Position numbers and translations under genes: made by a program
Shown: positions 1,919 through 48,502 of the stretch, piece after piece
How positions within the stretch are numbered: position 1 is the first letter of the stretch
Layout of the letters: every line of letters starts with the position of its first letter
The notes under the pieces: generated by a model
Seen by the model: the letters and a program-made list of their open reading frames with translations, nothing else
The model's database searches: none
What the model was told of the DNA's origin: nothing
Source of the DNA: a virus
Virus record (IMG/VR): IMGVR_UViG_3300025010_000079
Span: 1-52,668 of that record
DNA: 52,668 nucleotides
Strand: one strand, 5' to 3'

Positions 1919-3242
1919 TTAGTGTCTTGCTCGGCTTGATTTATTTGCTATTGCGAAGTATGATGAGGGGGAAATGTTTGTTGGACGTTTTTTATTAGTA
2001 ATATTCTTTCTTCTTAAATCATGTAAATAATGAGCAAGCATGATAATAGTGTAAAAACGGTCATCGTTCATTATGCGTTCTTTGTCTTTTGGTAATTTAT
2101 ATGATCTATTTGTCTTTTCTGGATTCTCAAATTTATAGATTGATGTTATTTCTGTTTTTAAAATATCCATATTGATTAAAGAAACTTCCTCCTCAAGAGA
2201 TAAATGTTTCTTTATTAGTTTTATTTCTTCGCCTTTTGCTTCTTGTAGCGTTACATATCCTTTTCCATCATATTCTTTTGGAAATTTTAATAAGTCTAAT
2301 TGCATTAACTCTATAAATTCATCAACCATTTGAGTGCGGTATTTATTTGGAGAGAATAATTTCAATTTATCACTAGCATTTGGATATCTATTTTCATATC
2401 CTGAGTATAATTCATAATCTTTATCTAAAAATCCTTTATGAACTACTCCTTTAACGTCCTTCCAATCTTCTAATAAATTATCTGCATAAGCACTAATTCC
2501 TCCACCTCCGGCTCCAGGATCAATGCTCAATATCTCGATATTTTGATAATCTGGTGCATTCCCATTGTAAGCTAATATACATTCTTTTAGTGCTTTAATT
2601 TGATCAGGAGATGACATTTTAATACCTTTTTTACTGGCTATATCAATTAAATTAGTACAATTAACTATTTCTCCATAATAACCTATGTTTTCATCATATA
2701 TTATTTTCATTACAGTTATTATACTTTGGTCTCCGCTACGTGCGGGGTCAAATGCTATTGCATATGTAAACCCTTCAACATAAGATAATTCAGGAAGTAT
2801 AAAAATTTCATTGCGTCTAATTTGCCCCCATTTGACAATTTGATTTTCACCGCCGTCTTTCGTAAAACGATTGTAATATTCTCGTTCGGCCTTACTTTTA
2901 TTTGCTCTCATAGCACTGTCAATTTTAGCTTGTGTTAAAAGAGGAGGATATATCTCTCCATCCAATGTAGGATTCAATGGAATATCACAAGGAATATCAC
3001 AACAGAAAAAATCAGAATTTCCAGCAAACATTTGTTTAGCAAAATTTTTATAATGTCTGTAAAAAGTAGTATCAACATCACTTGCAGAAGACGCATAAAT
3101 TAATTGAGTTGGGCATTTTTTTCTTTGTGCTTTTATATTAAAATCCTTTTTAATTGATGTTTTAAAGTTTGATTCTTGTGCTGCAAATGCTTCCATTACA
3201 CTAATTGCATTCTCTGACATAAAACCACTTTCATCGAAAAAT
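1919..3242 (-). CDS. terL: Terminase large subunit, exon 2 (end of ATPase domain and nuclease)
   Basis: This is the C-terminal part of the DNA-packaging motor. Reading upstream of the first ATG (3220) stays in frame and restores F-F-D-E-S-G, the Walker B motif, so the exon starts at 3242 and not at an ATG. Joined to 3535..4064 it gives an in-frame 617-residue protein. The RNase H-like nuclease shows its acidic residues in AFDPARSGDQS, ILSIDPGAGGGG and the later NDDRFYTIIMLAHYL. The exon runs straight into the portal gene downstream. Without splicing, this half could only be made by reinitiation at the internal ATG and would lack Walker B. Confidence 0.9.
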
Positions 3243-23040: not shown

Positions 23041-23074
23041 TTTAGAAATCTATTTTACTAGATTTCTAAAATCT
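23041..23074 (-). terminator. Terminator of the radical SAM gene
   Basis: A perfect stem TTTTAGAAATCT/AGATTTCTAAAA overlaps the last codons of the gene at 23050..24255. It is AU-rich, so its strength is uncertain. Confidence 0.45.
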
Positions 23075-24255
23075 GTAAACTTCAAATCATAATACTTCTC
23101 AGCAACATCTGGATATTTCTCCTCTAAATCCTTCATATACCTATTTGAAGAACAATTCTCCCCATTGACTTCTACATTAGCTTGACACCACTCTCTGTAA
23201 CTTCTCTTCTTAAATTGTGATGGCTGATTACACCATCTAGCTACATTAACATATGTACCATAAAATTCACTATCTTTATAATCCTTGTATCTCATTATAT
23301 ATGGTAAACATTGATATTTCATAAGAATCTTAATTCTTTCAAACATAGAATGTATATCACCAATACCTTGACTTCCATAAGCCACTAAAACGTAAAGTTT
23401 TGTTGTTTTTGTATTGTATTTTCTCCATAGAGTTAATTTTTCTTCTATTAAATCTCTATCCATAATATCATCAAAAGCGAATATGTAATCACCTTTGTAT
23501 TTTACATTAGACATTATTCTTGCCTTTTCATCGGTCATTAATCTTAAATCTAACCCTTGTTTGAATTGAAATGATTTCTTAGTGGCAATTAACTCTTCTA
23601 TGATATCTTTCCATTTTGGATAACCAAATAAGTTATCATCCAATAAACATATGTATGGTTTATCTTCGTCTAAAAATTCTTTAACTGGAGAGTGTAATTG
23701 AACTTTGTCATATTTCTTATTCACACAGAACTCACATTTACGAAAACAACCTCTAGTCGTAAATCCAATTGAGTAGTCTAGATAATATTCAAACTCTTTT
23801 CTTTTTGCTCCTTCTCTCATCATATTACCTATCCAACTATGATATAAGATATAATCTGGTTTCATATGTTCCATAAAGTCTGGGAGATCAGGCATAAGTT
23901 CATAATAGAATCCTGTCCCTCCGTAATATATATTATCATATTTCATTATATCAATTGGTATTTCCGTATAATCAAATACTTTAGATATATAAACCATATC
24001 ATATTTTTCTATATCATTATAGTTCATTAGCAAAGTAACTTTATCAGAACGTCTATATTTATGATATGCACTTATTTTCATTAACGCTAAGTTTGGAAAT
24101 CTATGACTATTATTACTTAATAAATCTGCATCTATTATTCCAATCTTCAGGCCAAACTCCTCCTTGCTGTCATGTTCAATCATCGCATGATAAGATGGAA
24201 TTGGCAAGTCTTTATTTAGATTATTGTTTTGTTTATCTTTTTTCATATTTTTCAT
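23050..24255 (-). CDS. Radical SAM protein with N-terminal B12-binding-like domain
   Basis: A 401-residue protein starting behind AGGAGG. The radical SAM cluster is C170-F-R-K-C174-E-F-C177. The N-terminal part (I-G-I-I-D-A-D-L-L ... R-F-P-N-L-A-L-M-K-I-S-A-Y-H-K) is a Rossmann-like domain of the cobalamin-binding type. Proteins with this R-F-P-N-L-A-L-M-K line are common in phages, and their substrate is unknown. After the cluster come L-L-D-D-N-L-F-G and a TIM-barrel-like body. It is a separate enzyme from the smaller radical SAM protein at 29.5 kb. Confidence 0.85.
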   Translation of the reverse strand: MKNMKKDKQNNNLNKDLPIPSYHAMIEHDSKEEFGLKIGIIDADLLSNNSHRFPNLALMKISAYHKYRRSDKVTLLMNYNDIEKYDMVYISKVFDYTEIPIDIMKYDNIYYGGTGFYYELMPDLPDFMEHMKPDYILYHSWIGNMMREGAKRKEFEYYLDYSIGFTTRGCFRKCEFCVNKKYDKVQLHSPVKEFLDEDKPYICLLDDNLFGYPKWKDIIEELIATKKSFQFKQGLDLRLMTDEKARIMSNVKYKGDYIFAFDDIMDRDLIEEKLTLWRKYNTKTTKLYVLVAYGSQGIGDIHSMFERIKILMKYQCLPYIMRYKDYKDSEFYGTYVNVARWCNQPSQFKKRSYREWCQANVEVNGENCSSNRYMKDLEEKYPDVAEKYYDLKFTDFRNLVK

Positions 24256-27271: not shown

Positions 27272-27338
27272 AAAAACGTGAAAGTTTGATTTTCCGATAA
27301 TAGTATATATAATAGAGAAATCAAACTTTCACGTTTTT
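27272..27338 (-). terminator. 21-bp perfect hairpin between the initiator-like and helicase genes
   Basis: Arms 27272-27292 and 27318-27338 are perfect reverse complements (core AAACGTGAAAGTTTGATTT) around a 25-nt loop. On the minus strand a U-run follows, so it can end transcription of the gene at 27329..28492, whose last codons it overlaps. The stem is far longer than a terminator needs. Confidence 0.7.
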
Positions 27339-28492
27339 ATTATTTTGATTCTTCTTACTTTGCCTTTTATATTTTTGGAATCCTTGTTTATTAAAGTGTT
27401 TGTAAGTTTATCATTGTCATCAATATATGTATCATTTATTCTTCTGGAAATATTTTTATCATGGGATTCTCCACAAAATAATTCTTCATTTTTCTTTATT
27501 GCTCTTGTTTGTTTGTTTTCTACATTTCCATGCAATCTTTTTGATATATCAACATTTAATGTCTGACAATGTATTTTTCTATCTTCTTCACTTAAAAGCA
27601 AGTCTAATAATTTATTTCTTTGTTGTATAATATGATCTTCATTACATATTATTTTATAAGAATTATAATAGTAGGCAATTTTAAGTTCATCAAGAATAAT
27701 ATCATCAACTTTTTCTTTAAATTCACTCCACATACTATTTCTTATTATCTCTTGCTTATTATTAAATCCCATACTTTCCATTGTGTTTCTTTCAGTGCGA
27801 AGTATAAATTTTTTCTCTGAAGTAGTTGCTTCTCTATGATGATAATCAATACGATTTACAATATTGTATTCAACTAATTTTTCGCCATATTCATCCTCCA
27901 ATGTATTCTTATTAATATTAAGACTTTGCTCATCTTCATTAATTCCAATTGTTACTAAATCACAAACAGTTAATTCACTTGACCAAAGAACTAATGATTG
28001 ACCCTTTAAATTATCTAATGCTTTTTCTAGATTTCTTTTCAACATTCCATCAGTTGATAAATACCATTCTTCAACTGTCTGTTTTTGTATTCCTATAAAT
28101 TCACTTAATTTTGGAATTCTTTCTTTACAATATGCATAATTATCATTTATCATTGCTAGTGATTTTAATAATTTATTTTTAGAAAGAAATACATTTCCAT
28201 TGTTTGTATCTTGTACTAAAAGATCAAGGATTAATAATTCAATTATTTCTATGTATTTTGTTTTATTACCACCTCCAGACTTATTTTTCCTACCATCTAC
28301 TTTTTCTAATGGAATCTCATATATCTCACTTACAGTATATAGTGTTTTATTTTTATGAATATTCATTAGACATTCTAATTCTTTTAGTTGTGATTGTTTT
28401 GCTCTTGTATTATTTTTTTGTTCTATAGATAGCACTTCACACAACTCCTTGTATTTATATGATTTATTAAACTCTATATTGTTTTTATTCAA
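27329..28492 (-). CDS. Possible replication initiator-like DNA-binding protein
   Basis: A 387-residue protein from TTG behind AAAGGATGTG. An N-terminal winged-helix-like region contains T-L-Y-T-V-S-E-I-Y-E-I-P-L-E-K-V-D-G-R, then a G-G-G-N-K-T-K-Y linker and L-I-L-D-L-L. The I-Y-E-x-P-L-x-K-x-D line recalls phage/plasmid replication-associated proteins of Bacillales. A second helix-turn-helix may be I-G-I-Q-K-Q-T-V-E-E-W-Y. The C-terminus is basic. It has its own consensus promoter. The initiator role is a guess from context. Confidence 0.45.
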   Translation of the reverse strand: MNKNNIEFNKSYKYKELCEVLSIEQKNNTRAKQSQLKELECLMNIHKNKTLYTVSEIYEIPLEKVDGRKNKSGGGNKTKYIEIIELLILDLLVQDTNNGNVFLSKNKLLKSLAMINDNYAYCKERIPKLSEFIGIQKQTVEEWYLSTDGMLKRNLEKALDNLKGQSLVLWSSELTVCDLVTIGINEDEQSLNINKNTLEDEYGEKLVEYNIVNRIDYHHREATTSEKKFILRTERNTMESMGFNNKQEIIRNSMWSEFKEKVDDIILDELKIAYYYNSYKIICNEDHIIQQRNKLLDLLLSEEDRKIHCQTLNVDISKRLHGNVENKQTRAIKKNEELFCGESHDKNISRRINDTYIDDNDKLTNTLINKDSKNIKGKVRRIKIIKT

Positions 28493-28693
28493 TAATTATT
28501 TTCACATCCTTTTGATATTTATTAATGGAATGAAAATTAAAATAGTGTTTCACATTGTTCAGCCCAATTTTAATTTATATGCTACGAAGAATATGTTTTA
28601 TTTTTGTATTTATGTAAAACCAACAATATCAATTTGCATCTGCAATATTTTTCTCCTTTCTTAATTTATTTCATAGTTATCCCTCACTTAATA

Positions 28694-28722
28694 ATTATAC
28701 CATACTAAAATAAACATGTCAA
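28694..28722 (-). promoter_or_regulatory. Consensus promoter of the initiator-like gene
   Basis: On the minus strand TTGACA (28722-28717), 17 nt, TATAAT (28699-28694): both boxes perfect. The leader of about 195 nt holds GAAAGGAG followed by a possible 11-codon peptide (M-Q-M-Q-I-D-I-V-G-F-T) before the main gene. Confidence 0.85.
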
Positions 28723-28768
28723 CATATTTTATTTATATATTTACAAAATAATTTAAAACATCAATACT

Positions 28769-29440
28769 CTACATCATCTCAATAAAAGGTATTAAAATTC
28801 TAGGAGATGCAATACCAGTATTTGATATAGTATGTGTTGCACCTGTGATTCCAAATCTTTTACTTTGTTCTTCACCAAAATAACTACAACTATGAGTTTC
28901 TAACCAATTATATTGTTTTGTTTTTACTTCTATATCATATTTCTTTATATGATATCCAGAATCTATTTTGCTAACATCTATAACTCTATACTCAATATTA
29001 TATTTATCCAAGAATGATGTAGCATTGGAAAGTAATAAATCAAAATTCTCCTCCCAATCACAGTCATTACAGAAACAAAATTGCTCAAGTTTAACAAATT
29101 CTTTACATCTTTTTAATCCTTCATAGCCATAATTTTCATGTCTAAAGCATTGATTTTTAGAATAAATGAGTTGTGGTTTAACATAAGAATCTGAGTAATA
29201 TTGTAATATTCCTTGCTCTGCCGAACCAGATAAATTATGTATATGATCTACTGAAAGAGATTTAACAATATCTTCAATACCTTGTCTTTCAAAACTATTC
29301 CATCTTGTTAAACTTGGAATTGATAAATATCTAAACCCCTTACCATCTAACATATCTTCAAATTCTATGAATAGTTTCTTTTCTAATAGAGATAGTTCAA
29401 ATCCTAAATTATAAATACCACTTTCTACTTCATATTTCAT
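28769..29440 (-). CDS. Seryl-tRNA-synthetase-like catalytic core (no tRNA-binding arm)
   Basis: A 223-residue protein aligning by eye to the class II catalytic domain of SerRS. The TAE-like loop is S71-G-S-A-E-Q-G; motif 2 is C98-F-R100-H-E102, with E-F-V-K-L-E119 after it; Y-D169-I-E171 and E181-T-H-S-C-S match the serine-site region; motif 3 is N207-T-G-I-A-S-P-R214. The N-terminal coiled-coil arm that grips tRNA is absent and the end is short. Adenylate-forming residues look intact, so it may activate serine or a similar amino acid for another acceptor, as the aa:carrier-protein ligases do. It is last in an operon with MazG-like and radical SAM genes. Confidence 0.82.
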   Translation of the reverse strand: MKYEVESGIYNLGFELSLLEKKLFIEFEDMLDGKGFRYLSIPSLTRWNSFERQGIEDIVKSLSVDHIHNLSGSAEQGILQYYSDSYVKPQLIYSKNQCFRHENYGYEGLKRCKEFVKLEQFCFCNDCDWEENFDLLLSNATSFLDKYNIEYRVIDVSKIDSGYHIKKYDIEVKTKQYNWLETHSCSYFGEEQSKRFGITGATHTISNTGIASPRILIPFIEMM

Positions 29441-29459
29441 TTTGTATTCTTCCTTTCTT

Positions 29460-30251
29460 TTAGTAAATTAATTTATCTCCATACCATACTAGATTATGAA
29501 TTGTCTTATCTTTGTTATAATCTTTATTGCTAAATAATGAGATTTGTTTTTCGTTGTGATTCCAAATATGATTATTAAATTCATATCCTATATAATCAAA
29601 ACTTGTATCTAAAACAAATCTAGTTGTATCGACATCATTATAATTTAATCCATTTTCAGATATCCATTTAGTATATTCATTATTTTGATTTTCTTGAGTG
29701 TCTAATATTTTTAATGCGATAGTTTCAATGTTTCTGTACTGAATTAAATATTTCTTAATATCATGATTCATAAATGGAGATAAATTTCTAAGTAGTACAT
29801 AGTTTAATCTAATTCTTGCATTGTGGAAATTTTTGGTTAAAGTATAATCATTTTTATAATGTAATACAGAACTATCAACATCATAATATTCACTTATTCT
29901 TGTAATTTCAATAAGCCAATCTTTAAATAAATAGAATAATTTATCATTGTAAAATAGATTACCAGATGTTTGAATTCTATAATCTTCAAATAGTCCTGAA
30001 TTAGTTACGATTGATACAATTTCTTGTAAATATTCATATGTATAGTAAGATGGTTCACCATTGCCACTTAATACAAAGTATTTGAACTTTGCTTTATCTT
30101 GGATTAGTTTATCAATTTGCATTTTAAATTGAATTAAATCTTCATTAACTTCAGGTAATCTCTCTATTTTAGCTATACAATAAGGGCAATTTTTATTACA
30201 TTTATAGGATGATAATATCATGATAAAGTCTTTATAATCCAAATTATTCAC
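29460..30251 (-). CDS. Small radical SAM enzyme in the MazG/SerRS-like operon
   Basis: A 263-residue protein. The cluster is C18-N-K-N-C22-P-Y-C25; L-S-G-N-G-E-P67 is the SAM-binding GGE-type motif; the remainder is a partial TIM barrel ending at V-W-Y-G-D-K-L-I-Y. No second cluster (SPASM-type cysteines) is visible. It overlaps the MazG-like gene by 8 bp and lies 19 nt before the SerRS-like gene. This tight spacing says the three products belong to one pathway. The substrate cannot be read from sequence. Confidence 0.85.
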   Translation of the reverse strand: MNNLDYKDFIMILSSYKCNKNCPYCIAKIERLPEVNEDLIQFKMQIDKLIQDKAKFKYFVLSGNGEPSYYTYEYLQEIVSIVTNSGLFEDYRIQTSGNLFYNDKLFYLFKDWLIEITRISEYYDVDSSVLHYKNDYTLTKNFHNARIRLNYVLLRNLSPFMNHDIKKYLIQYRNIETIALKILDTQENQNNEYTKWISENGLNYNDVDTTRFVLDTSFDYIGYEFNNHIWNHNEKQISLFSNKDYNKDKTIHNLVWYGDKLIY

Positions 30252-30480
30252 CTTCCATTGCTACTTTACTTCTAAGTTTTGCAAATGCTATTAATTGTTC
30301 TAATGTAAAACCATATTTCTTAGATACTCCCTCTACTGCACCAATAATATCTGATAGTTCTATTAGAAGCATTAAGTCTTGATTTTGAGACTCTGCGTCA
30401 TATGCTTCTTCTAGTTCTTCTTTAATTTTTGATAATTCTCCATAGATTCCTTTTTGTATTTTTGCTTTGTGGAATTTCAT
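30244..30480 (-). CDS. MazG-like nucleotide pyrophosphohydrolase
   Basis: A 78-residue protein. The metal-binding pattern E-E-L-E-E ... E-L-S-D-I-I-G-A-V-E (about residues 20-52) is that of the all-alpha MazG/dUTPase-2 superfamily, which removes pyrophosphate from (d)NTPs or related nucleotides. It is shorter than full MazG, like other phage MazG-like proteins. It is first in the operon, directly behind a consensus promoter. Confidence 0.75.
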   Translation of the reverse strand: MKFHKAKIQKGIYGELSKIKEELEEAYDAESQNQDLMLLIELSDIIGAVEGVSKKYGFTLEQLIAFAKLRSKVAMEGE

Positions 30481-30528
30481 TAGTGGTTACTCCTTTCTTA
30501 GTAATTTTTTATATTTATCCATATACTA

Positions 30529-30557
30529 ATTGTACCACAGTAACTAAGTTATGTCAA
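30529..30557 (-). promoter_or_regulatory. Consensus promoter of the MazG-radical SAM-SerRS-like operon
   Basis: On the minus strand TTGACA (30557-30552), 17 nt, TACAAT (30534-30529). The distance to the MazG-like ATG is about 50 nt, with GGAG in between. Confidence 0.82.
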
Positions 30558-48423: not shown

Positions 48424-48502
48424 TAATTGCAGAGTGGTAGAGCGTTATAATAGATCGCGCTCTATTAATGCACAGAGCAGGTCACAAGTCCTGCTAAGAT
48501 GC
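48424..48502 (+). promoter_or_regulatory. Double-hairpin intergenic element
   Basis: TAGAGCG/CGCTCTA around a loop that contains TTATAATAG, inside TTGCA/TGCA, then AGCAGG/CCTGCT. It superficially looks tRNA-like. It is probably a relative of the hairpin family next to the 124-residue gene. Confidence 0.4.

Follow-up and report, generated by a model that had tools for sequence, protein, structure and literature searches.

New chemistry is known to arise from aminoacyl-tRNA synthetase paralogues that no longer depend on tRNA, and several described systems come close to the locus presented here. EpmA (PoxA/GenX) is a LysRS-derived class II core without an anticodon domain that acts on EF-P together with the radical SAM enzyme EpmB, a lysine 2,3-aminomutase, and puromycin-type aminoacyl-nucleoside assembly uses the ligase Pur6 and the pyrophosphohydrolase Pur7. 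The first of these shares with our locus a class II core combined with a radical SAM enzyme, but its core is derived from LysRS rather than SerRS, its target is EF-P and it has no MazG partner. The second, which serves here as a lead, likewise joins an amino-acid ligase and a nucleotide pyrophosphohydrolase to yield an aminoacyl nucleotide, but with other protein families and many more enzymes. EpmA/EpmB and this assembly, with its dedicated pyrophosphohydrolase, would be the nearest working analogies. In histidine biosynthesis, too, a paralogue of a class II synthetase (HisZ) works alongside an all-alpha pyrophosphohydrolase (HisE, PRA-PH); however, HisZ is HisRS-derived and non-adenylating (PMC9437257), whereas the core described below is SerRS-derived and appears to keep its active site. 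The SerRS-like amino acid:[carrier protein] ligases of Bradyrhizobium have, like our protein, a SerRS-related core without a tRNA-binding domain, and they depend on zinc (PMC9437257). In the case of the autoinducer DPO, an aminoacyl-adenylate released from a synthetase acylates a small amine without tRNA (PMC12930378), but no dedicated enzyme is involved there, whereas here a dedicated arm-less core has a fixed partner. We found no description of a MazG/SerRS-core/radical SAM combination in the open-access literature, in agreement with the original prediction, whose author knew of no described system of this composition.

The window, that is, the whole 52.7-kb stretch of viral DNA that was analysed, is a phage fragment encoding a portal protein (298-1884) and a terminase large subunit (1922-3220). 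No tRNA genes were found in the window, and megablast against the phage collection returned no relative of its central 15 kb. Three genes with intact ORFs, all on the minus strand, make up the cassette: a gene for a 78-aa MazG-like protein resembling all-alpha NTP pyrophosphohydrolases and phosphoribosyl-ATP pyrophosphohydrolase (30244-30480, phrog_6408), a lineage-specific radical SAM gene in the middle (29460-30251, 263 aa from a GTG start) and a gene for a 223-aa seryl-tRNA synthetase catalytic core without the arm (28769-29440, phrog_4806). The 8-bp overlap and the 19-nt gap of the original prediction were exact; they lie between the first two ORFs (30244-30251) and the last two (29441-29459), respectively. 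Clear ribosome-binding sites accompany the MazG-like and SerRS core genes, while the start of the radical SAM gene is uncertain because the sequence GGAAG directly abuts its GTG; an alternative ATG lies at 30221. A consensus promoter had also been predicted, and a site (TTGACA-17-TACAAT) with an extended −10 element (TG) is indeed present at 30557-30529 on the minus strand, 50 nt upstream of the MazG-like gene, matching 11 of the 12 consensus positions. However, promoter-type matches in the window do not exceed the chance number (16 seen versus 27.7 expected in shuffled sequence), so that this site is only suggestive of a cassette promoter. A perfect 12/12 sigma-70 match with an extended −10 element occurs at 28694-28722 on the same strand, just 3' of the SerRS core gene and ahead of a 387-aa ORF (27329-28492).

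The three genes were found in identical order in two IMG/VR contigs (L001 and L002). A conserved block on the minus strand (28653-30524), 1.9 kb in length and matching the extent of the cassette, is 88% identical to these contigs, whereas the mostly diverged flanks align only in scattered pieces. Comparison of the cassettes gave dN/dS values of 0.11 for the SerRS core, 0.10 for the radical SAM gene and 0.25 for the MazG-like gene, indicating at the level of sequence that all three are under purifying selection. The conservation of the block amid diverged flanks, together with this selection, indicates that the cassette is maintained as a unit.

The last gene had been read as a SerRS relative reduced to its catalytic core, and all searches favoured this assignment. 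The protein matched Pfam tRNA-synt_2b (E 5e-12), SerRS chains among PDB sequences (E 3e-9) and, over its full length (residues 17-221), the HMM of phrog_4806 (E 1e-39). The best NCBIfam model was serS (E 1e-15), although its 57.5 bits did not reach the equivalog cut-off of 301.65; the hisS and hisZ models gave no match in the NCBIfam search. An AlphaFold2 model of the core was confident (pLDDT 87.3, pTM 0.86), and the top Foldseek matches listed were all SerRS, including seryl-adenylate complexes such as 1wle (E 1e-17, query TM-score 0.83); 9qof, an arm-deletion form of E. coli SerRS, was also returned. The protein has C-F-R-H-E as class II motif 2 and T-G-I-A-S-P-R as motif 3, and it starts straight at the catalytic domain, the N-terminal coiled-coil tRNA-binding arm being absent in the sequence, in the PDB alignment and in the model alike. 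No other class II family aligned better than SerRS by HMM, PDB sequence search or fold, and on the strength of sequence and model we regard the window core as the catalytic part of a SerRS that has lost its tRNA-binding arm. With the arm absent and the serS equivalog cut-off not reached, it was rejected as a canonical SerRS, and it was rejected as HisZ since it is SerRS-derived and not HisRS-derived. The PHROG label of phrog_4806, 'histidyl tRNA synthetase', is misleading; because any annotation that it receives is 'seryl-' or 'histidyl-tRNA synthetase', genome papers take the core for translation help.

The residues of Thermus thermophilus SerRS were mapped via alignment to a PDB chain, and 12 relatives of the core were aligned. 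E227, R256, E258, E279, T380 and R386 (T. thermophilus numbering) were retained in 12 of 12 relatives, and the T225 position is occupied by Ser. E345 and S348 are retained in the window group, and the phi92 type probably supplies the equivalent metal ligands through an E-x-x-S motif (ELGS). At the position of Asn378, cores of the window group have Ser and most phi92-type cores have Tyr, and therefore the activated amino acid may differ. Otherwise the ATP- and amino-acid-binding residues were invariant despite about 20% identity, as were Ser73, Glu119 and Thr208 of the core. The core thus shares its catalytic fold and class II motifs with bacterial-type SerRS (TIGR00414), together with almost every residue that binds serine or ATP, but it measures 175-230 aa across relatives versus about 425 aa, lacks the coiled-coil arm and comes with a MazG-like partner or fusion. 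Its motif 2 loop is also 4-7 residues shorter, the distance from the motif 2 Arg to the Glu279 equivalent being 16-19 residues compared to 23 in T. thermophilus SerRS; in SerRS this loop contacts the tRNA acceptor. Sequence and model together suggest that the core has probably kept amino-acid adenylation and has probably lost standard tRNA charging. The zinc of the carrier-protein ligases is presumably held by Cys ligands, as in methanogenic-type SerRS, at positions equivalent to Ser73, Glu119 and Thr208. The window core instead has Ser/Glu/Thr there, as in bacterial-type SerRS, and it was rejected as a known carrier-protein ligase as the zinc site was not matched.

These features bear on the possibility that the core is an unusual tRNA-Ser charging enzyme, or a tRNA modifier, in which the MazG-like domain or another protein replaces the arm. 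The pair of genes does lie inside a tRNA cluster in Caulobacter phage CcrBL9, and one publication on a phage assigns tRNA-Ser charging to the gene (PMC8953757), but the missing arm, the shorter motif 2 loop and the lack of a tRNA gene in the window make such a function highly improbable. In addition, Brevundimonas phage Kikimora carries a separate full-length SerRS, as does one of the cellular genomes (L042); in the latter it lies 0.9 kb from a SerRS-MazG fusion, which shows that the core is not the housekeeping SerRS.

The pair of MazG-like and SerRS core genes is widespread in many large phages, and in a few archaea and small bacteria, the window version having a radical SAM gene between the two. 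Our survey of IMG/VR and GTDB genomes yielded 85 distinct loci, which are related by descent, so that the counts are not independent events. In 82 of the 85 loci a MazG-like gene lay no more than 1 kb from the SerRS core in the same orientation, and in 57 no more than 50 bp away, sometimes in reversed order; only one single further MazG-like match was found in 542 kb of flanking DNA. The MazG-like gene is located immediately 5' of the core in Bacillus phage G (gp286/gp287), BpSp, the uncultured phage LR745208 and E. coli phage phi92 (gp197/gp196), and also in Providencia, Pectobacterium, Erwinia, Acinetobacter, Caulobacter and Brevundimonas phages. When tblastn was performed with the phi92 core protein, 269 phage records were matched, and in some phage groups nearly all members have the pair. 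A genome scan seeded with the window core protein found no loci, whereas reseeding with a phi92-type core yielded eight loci in metagenome-assembled genomes (MAGs), some contigs of which may be mis-binned; several of the DPANN loci are embedded among housekeeping genes. In Microcystis phage MaMV-DC the two proteins are a single fused protein (gp129, with phrog_4806 at residues 1-187 and phrog_6408 at residues 189-266), and SerRS-MazG fusions also occur in L036, L039, L040, L042, L126, L127 and L129; the fusion was present in at least seven sampled genomes, and in at least six DPANN/CPR genomes. Since the gene order varies and the fusion recurs, there is strong evidence from sequence for a shared reaction or complex, that is, for the pair being a conserved and functionally linked unit, as had been proposed for the two window genes. 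What sets this synthetase relative apart is a partner that is fixed across hugely different phages and archaeal chromosomes, and because the pair is found in many E. coli phages that can be cultured (phi92 and phAPEC8 groups), its function is directly testable.

Several individual loci deserve mention. An intact partner is missing beside a few cores; in Acinetobacter phage Acj61 a 31-aa ORF before the core (L013:2886-2981, +), which starts MSGYHITAIKKS, seems to be a MazG-like remnant. The SerRS core gene of LR745208 (L005:5873-6465, +) is apparently split, its N-terminus and catalytic part being in different frames, through either a broken gene or an assembly error. In a bacterial MAG, a gene that begins at the SerRS core stop (L038:4552-5724, +) encodes a C-terminal uridine-kinase-like domain and an N-terminus that is CYTH-like by eye (IERKY). 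A divergently transcribed gene flanks the fusion in five DPANN genomes (L036, L040, L042, L126 and L127); its product of about 280 aa seems to have a helix-turn-helix at the N-terminus, matched no Pfam family clearly and may be a regulator of the fused SerRS-MazG.

The window MazG-like protein matched the phrog_6408 HMM over its full length (E 9.8e-27), and it scored below the cut-off against Pfam PRA-PH (E 0.009, 16.9 bits versus 21.3). Pfam scores were sub-threshold for PRA-PH (E 0.009-0.04) and MazG (E 0.02) alike, and a profile search gave no significant match to that fold among PDB chains, HisE being best at E 0.06. K18, E21, E22, E25, D28, E41 and D44 were invariant in 18 of 18 diverse family members, giving the complete EExxE...ExxD metal-binding motif that is the pattern of all-alpha NTP pyrophosphohydrolases. 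The predicted MazG-type partner was borne out to this extent, and we call it MazG-like, the assignment resting on the motif and on the sub-threshold Pfam scores.

That PRA-PH is the closest Pfam family, and acts in the histidine pathway too, raises the question of whether the core could be a non-catalytic paralogue that controls the MazG-like enzyme by sensing serine or ATP, in the manner of HisZ, a class II paralogue that forms no adenylate (PMC9437257). Given that the matches of the core are to SerRS and not to hisS or hisZ, and that invariant ATP- and amino-acid-binding residues over about 20% identity argue for catalysis, this seems extremely improbable. Another proposal would be that the core's adenylate makes or removes Ap4A-like dinucleotide signals while the MazG-like protein removes host stress or immune nucleotides. 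Class II synthetases do produce Ap4A from the adenylate, and an anti-defence role would suit a pair that almost every member of some phage groups carries. The MazG of a cyanophage acts as a dNTP pyrophosphohydrolase, cleaving dGTP and dCTP, but the same enzyme is inactive on (p)ppGpp (PMC6850273). Moreover, the residues that bind serine are strictly conserved, which points to an amino acid as the real substrate, and counter-defence would hardly explain the archaeal chromosomal copies, so that we consider this proposal quite improbable.

Neighbour clustering revealed no recurrent third gene beside the pair that would mark the acceptor; the clusters reflected synteny within lineages, apart from scattered genes for nucleotide metabolism or RlaP. 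Seven loci (L016, L017, L047, L048, L050, L075 and L092) have an RlaP-type nucleotidyltransferase gene no further than 3 kb from the pair, two of them in contigs unrelated to Vequintavirinae. The original prediction was of a phage pathway that attaches an amino acid to a nucleotide, nucleic acid or peptide, and one version of it is nucleic-acid hypermodification, in which the module would make an aminoacylated nucleotide or base that ends in phage DNA. Modification at the nucleotide level typically involves a pyrophosphohydrolase that supplies a monophosphate, and genes for ribonucleotide reductase, thymidylate synthase or deoxynucleotide kinase do lie near the pair in several phages, but such neighbours are common in large phages anyway. 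Among the neighbours, no DNA-modification genes travelled with the pair, and the module is also present in DPANN/CPR chromosomes amid housekeeping genes. Importantly, the BASEL study found phi92-like phages, which carry the pair, to be exceptionally susceptible to restriction-modification, apparently without protection (PMC8594841). Because of this sensitivity, DNA hypermodification is disfavoured, and this version of the original prediction was not supported; a modification that restriction enzymes ignore, or one confined to phages that also have the radical SAM gene, could possibly be compatible with it, and overall we judge the idea decidedly unlikely.

The window radical SAM protein has a CxxxCxxC motif at residues 18-25 (C18, C22 and C25) and a GGxEP-type motif (S62-P67), and its match to Pfam Radical_SAM was just below the cut-off (E 1.7e-5, 25.5 bits versus 29.5). 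Its AlphaFold2 model was unusable (pLDDT 45.7). As an EpmB-type lysine aminomutase it was rejected, reaching 15.1 bits (E 0.009) compared to 369 for the equivalog. The sole close relatives, 87% identical, are those of the same cassette in L001 and L002. A regular-expression search for CxxxCxxC over all loci matched only in L001, L015, L028, L036, L039 and L040, and most paired loci have no radical SAM gene. Phage G, BpSp and LR745208, which are among the closest relatives in phages, have none beside the pair, and in L024 an apparent HNH endonuclease gene (L024:2217-2825, +) lies between the MazG-like gene and the core, where the window has the radical SAM gene. The triplet was accordingly rejected as a phage-wide unit, and the phage radical SAM gene could be an insertion.

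A random insertion is possible in the window, but this reading is weakened by the finding that radical SAM genes adjoin the fusion in DPANN/CPR genomes. There, the radical SAM proteins belong to another family, of about 226 aa, and their genes overlap or adjoin the SerRS-MazG fusion gene in DPANN archaea (L036, L040, L126 and L127) and in a WWE3 genome (L039). The archaeal family occurs in exactly 4 of 262 sampled genomes of its phylum, all with the adjacent fusion (hypergeometric 2.6e-8, shared descent being ignored); some of its best NCBIfam matches are maturases, and no relative was found in viral contigs. Comparison of the window and archaeal proteins gave an hhalign probability of 81 over 72 columns and HMMER E values of 0.075 and 1.4, so that the two appear alike only at the superfamily level, and orthology is not demonstrable from the sequences. 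In essence, the predicted three-gene unit stands in so far as the triplet recurs in L001/L002 and radical SAM genes lie beside the module in distant DPANN/WWE3 genomes; it does not stand for the nearest phage relatives, which lack the gene, and the subfamilies are not demonstrably the same. The composition of MazG, SerRS core and radical SAM recurs in unrelated genomes, perhaps by separate recruitment, the association being strong in DPANN and plausible in the window.

A radical SAM neighbour would also fit a core that attaches serine to a protein, a peptide or a carrier protein, either as EpmA acts on EF-P or through a phosphopantetheine arm, with the radical SAM enzyme altering the amino acid or peptide. 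EpmA/EpmB is a real precedent for such a combination, and the maturases among the best matches of the archaeal radical SAM family point in the same direction. Class II cores without a tRNA-binding domain are known to do exactly this (PMC9437257). On the other hand, no carrier-protein-like or small-peptide cluster recurred among the neighbours, the small ORFs of which were partly family-scanned, the conserved residues do not fit the zinc dependence of carrier-protein ligases, and a nucleotide pyrophosphohydrolase fused to the core would be left without a role. Attachment to a carrier protein or peptide is possible, as is attachment to a nucleotide, but as the function of the module we regard the former as unlikely.

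Our preferred reading, to which we give a rough probability of 45%, is seryl-adenylate chemistry without tRNA that serves a small acceptor, the MazG-like protein handling a nucleotide and the radical SAM enzyme being optional. The SerRS-derived core would bind ATP and an amino acid, most likely L-serine, to form an aminoacyl-adenylate and, having no arm and a shorter motif 2 loop, would pass the aminoacyl group to a small acceptor instead of charging tRNA in the standard way. The SerRS fold, the near-complete active site and the arm loss, as judged from sequence and model, make adenylation independent of tRNA the likely function, and serine is the somewhat favoured substrate. The MazG-like partner, with its complete metal motif and its functional linkage to the core, would convert a nucleoside triphosphate (or similar) to a monophosphate and in this way make or remove the nucleotide acceptor or product of the transfer. 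That the acceptor itself is a nucleotide is a tentative suggestion, which we hold at slightly less than even odds. The radical SAM protein would be an optional tailoring enzyme modifying the product, recruited in the phage lineage of the window and separately in DPANN/CPR; its participation in the same pathway in the window is reasonably probable, and the rearrangement of the product that was originally predicted is speculation. Tentatively, and again somewhat short of an even chance, the SerRS core without its arm and the MazG-type pyrophosphohydrolase, often fused and in some lineages joined by a radical SAM enzyme, may form an undescribed metabolic module that large phages share with DPANN archaea and CPR bacteria. 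It would produce a new metabolite, a seryl-nucleotide or a related aminoacyl compound, for use as a signal, as a cofactor or against the host.

Two further features of the window lie outside the cassette. Another radical SAM gene at 23053-24255 on the minus strand encodes a 401-aa protein with a CFRKCEFC motif that matches phrog_9298, 'radical SAM domain protein' (E 1.6e-55), and a type-P5 twister ribozyme is located at 48428-48493 on the plus strand (Rfam RF02684, 57.1 bits compared to a gathering threshold of 37.6).
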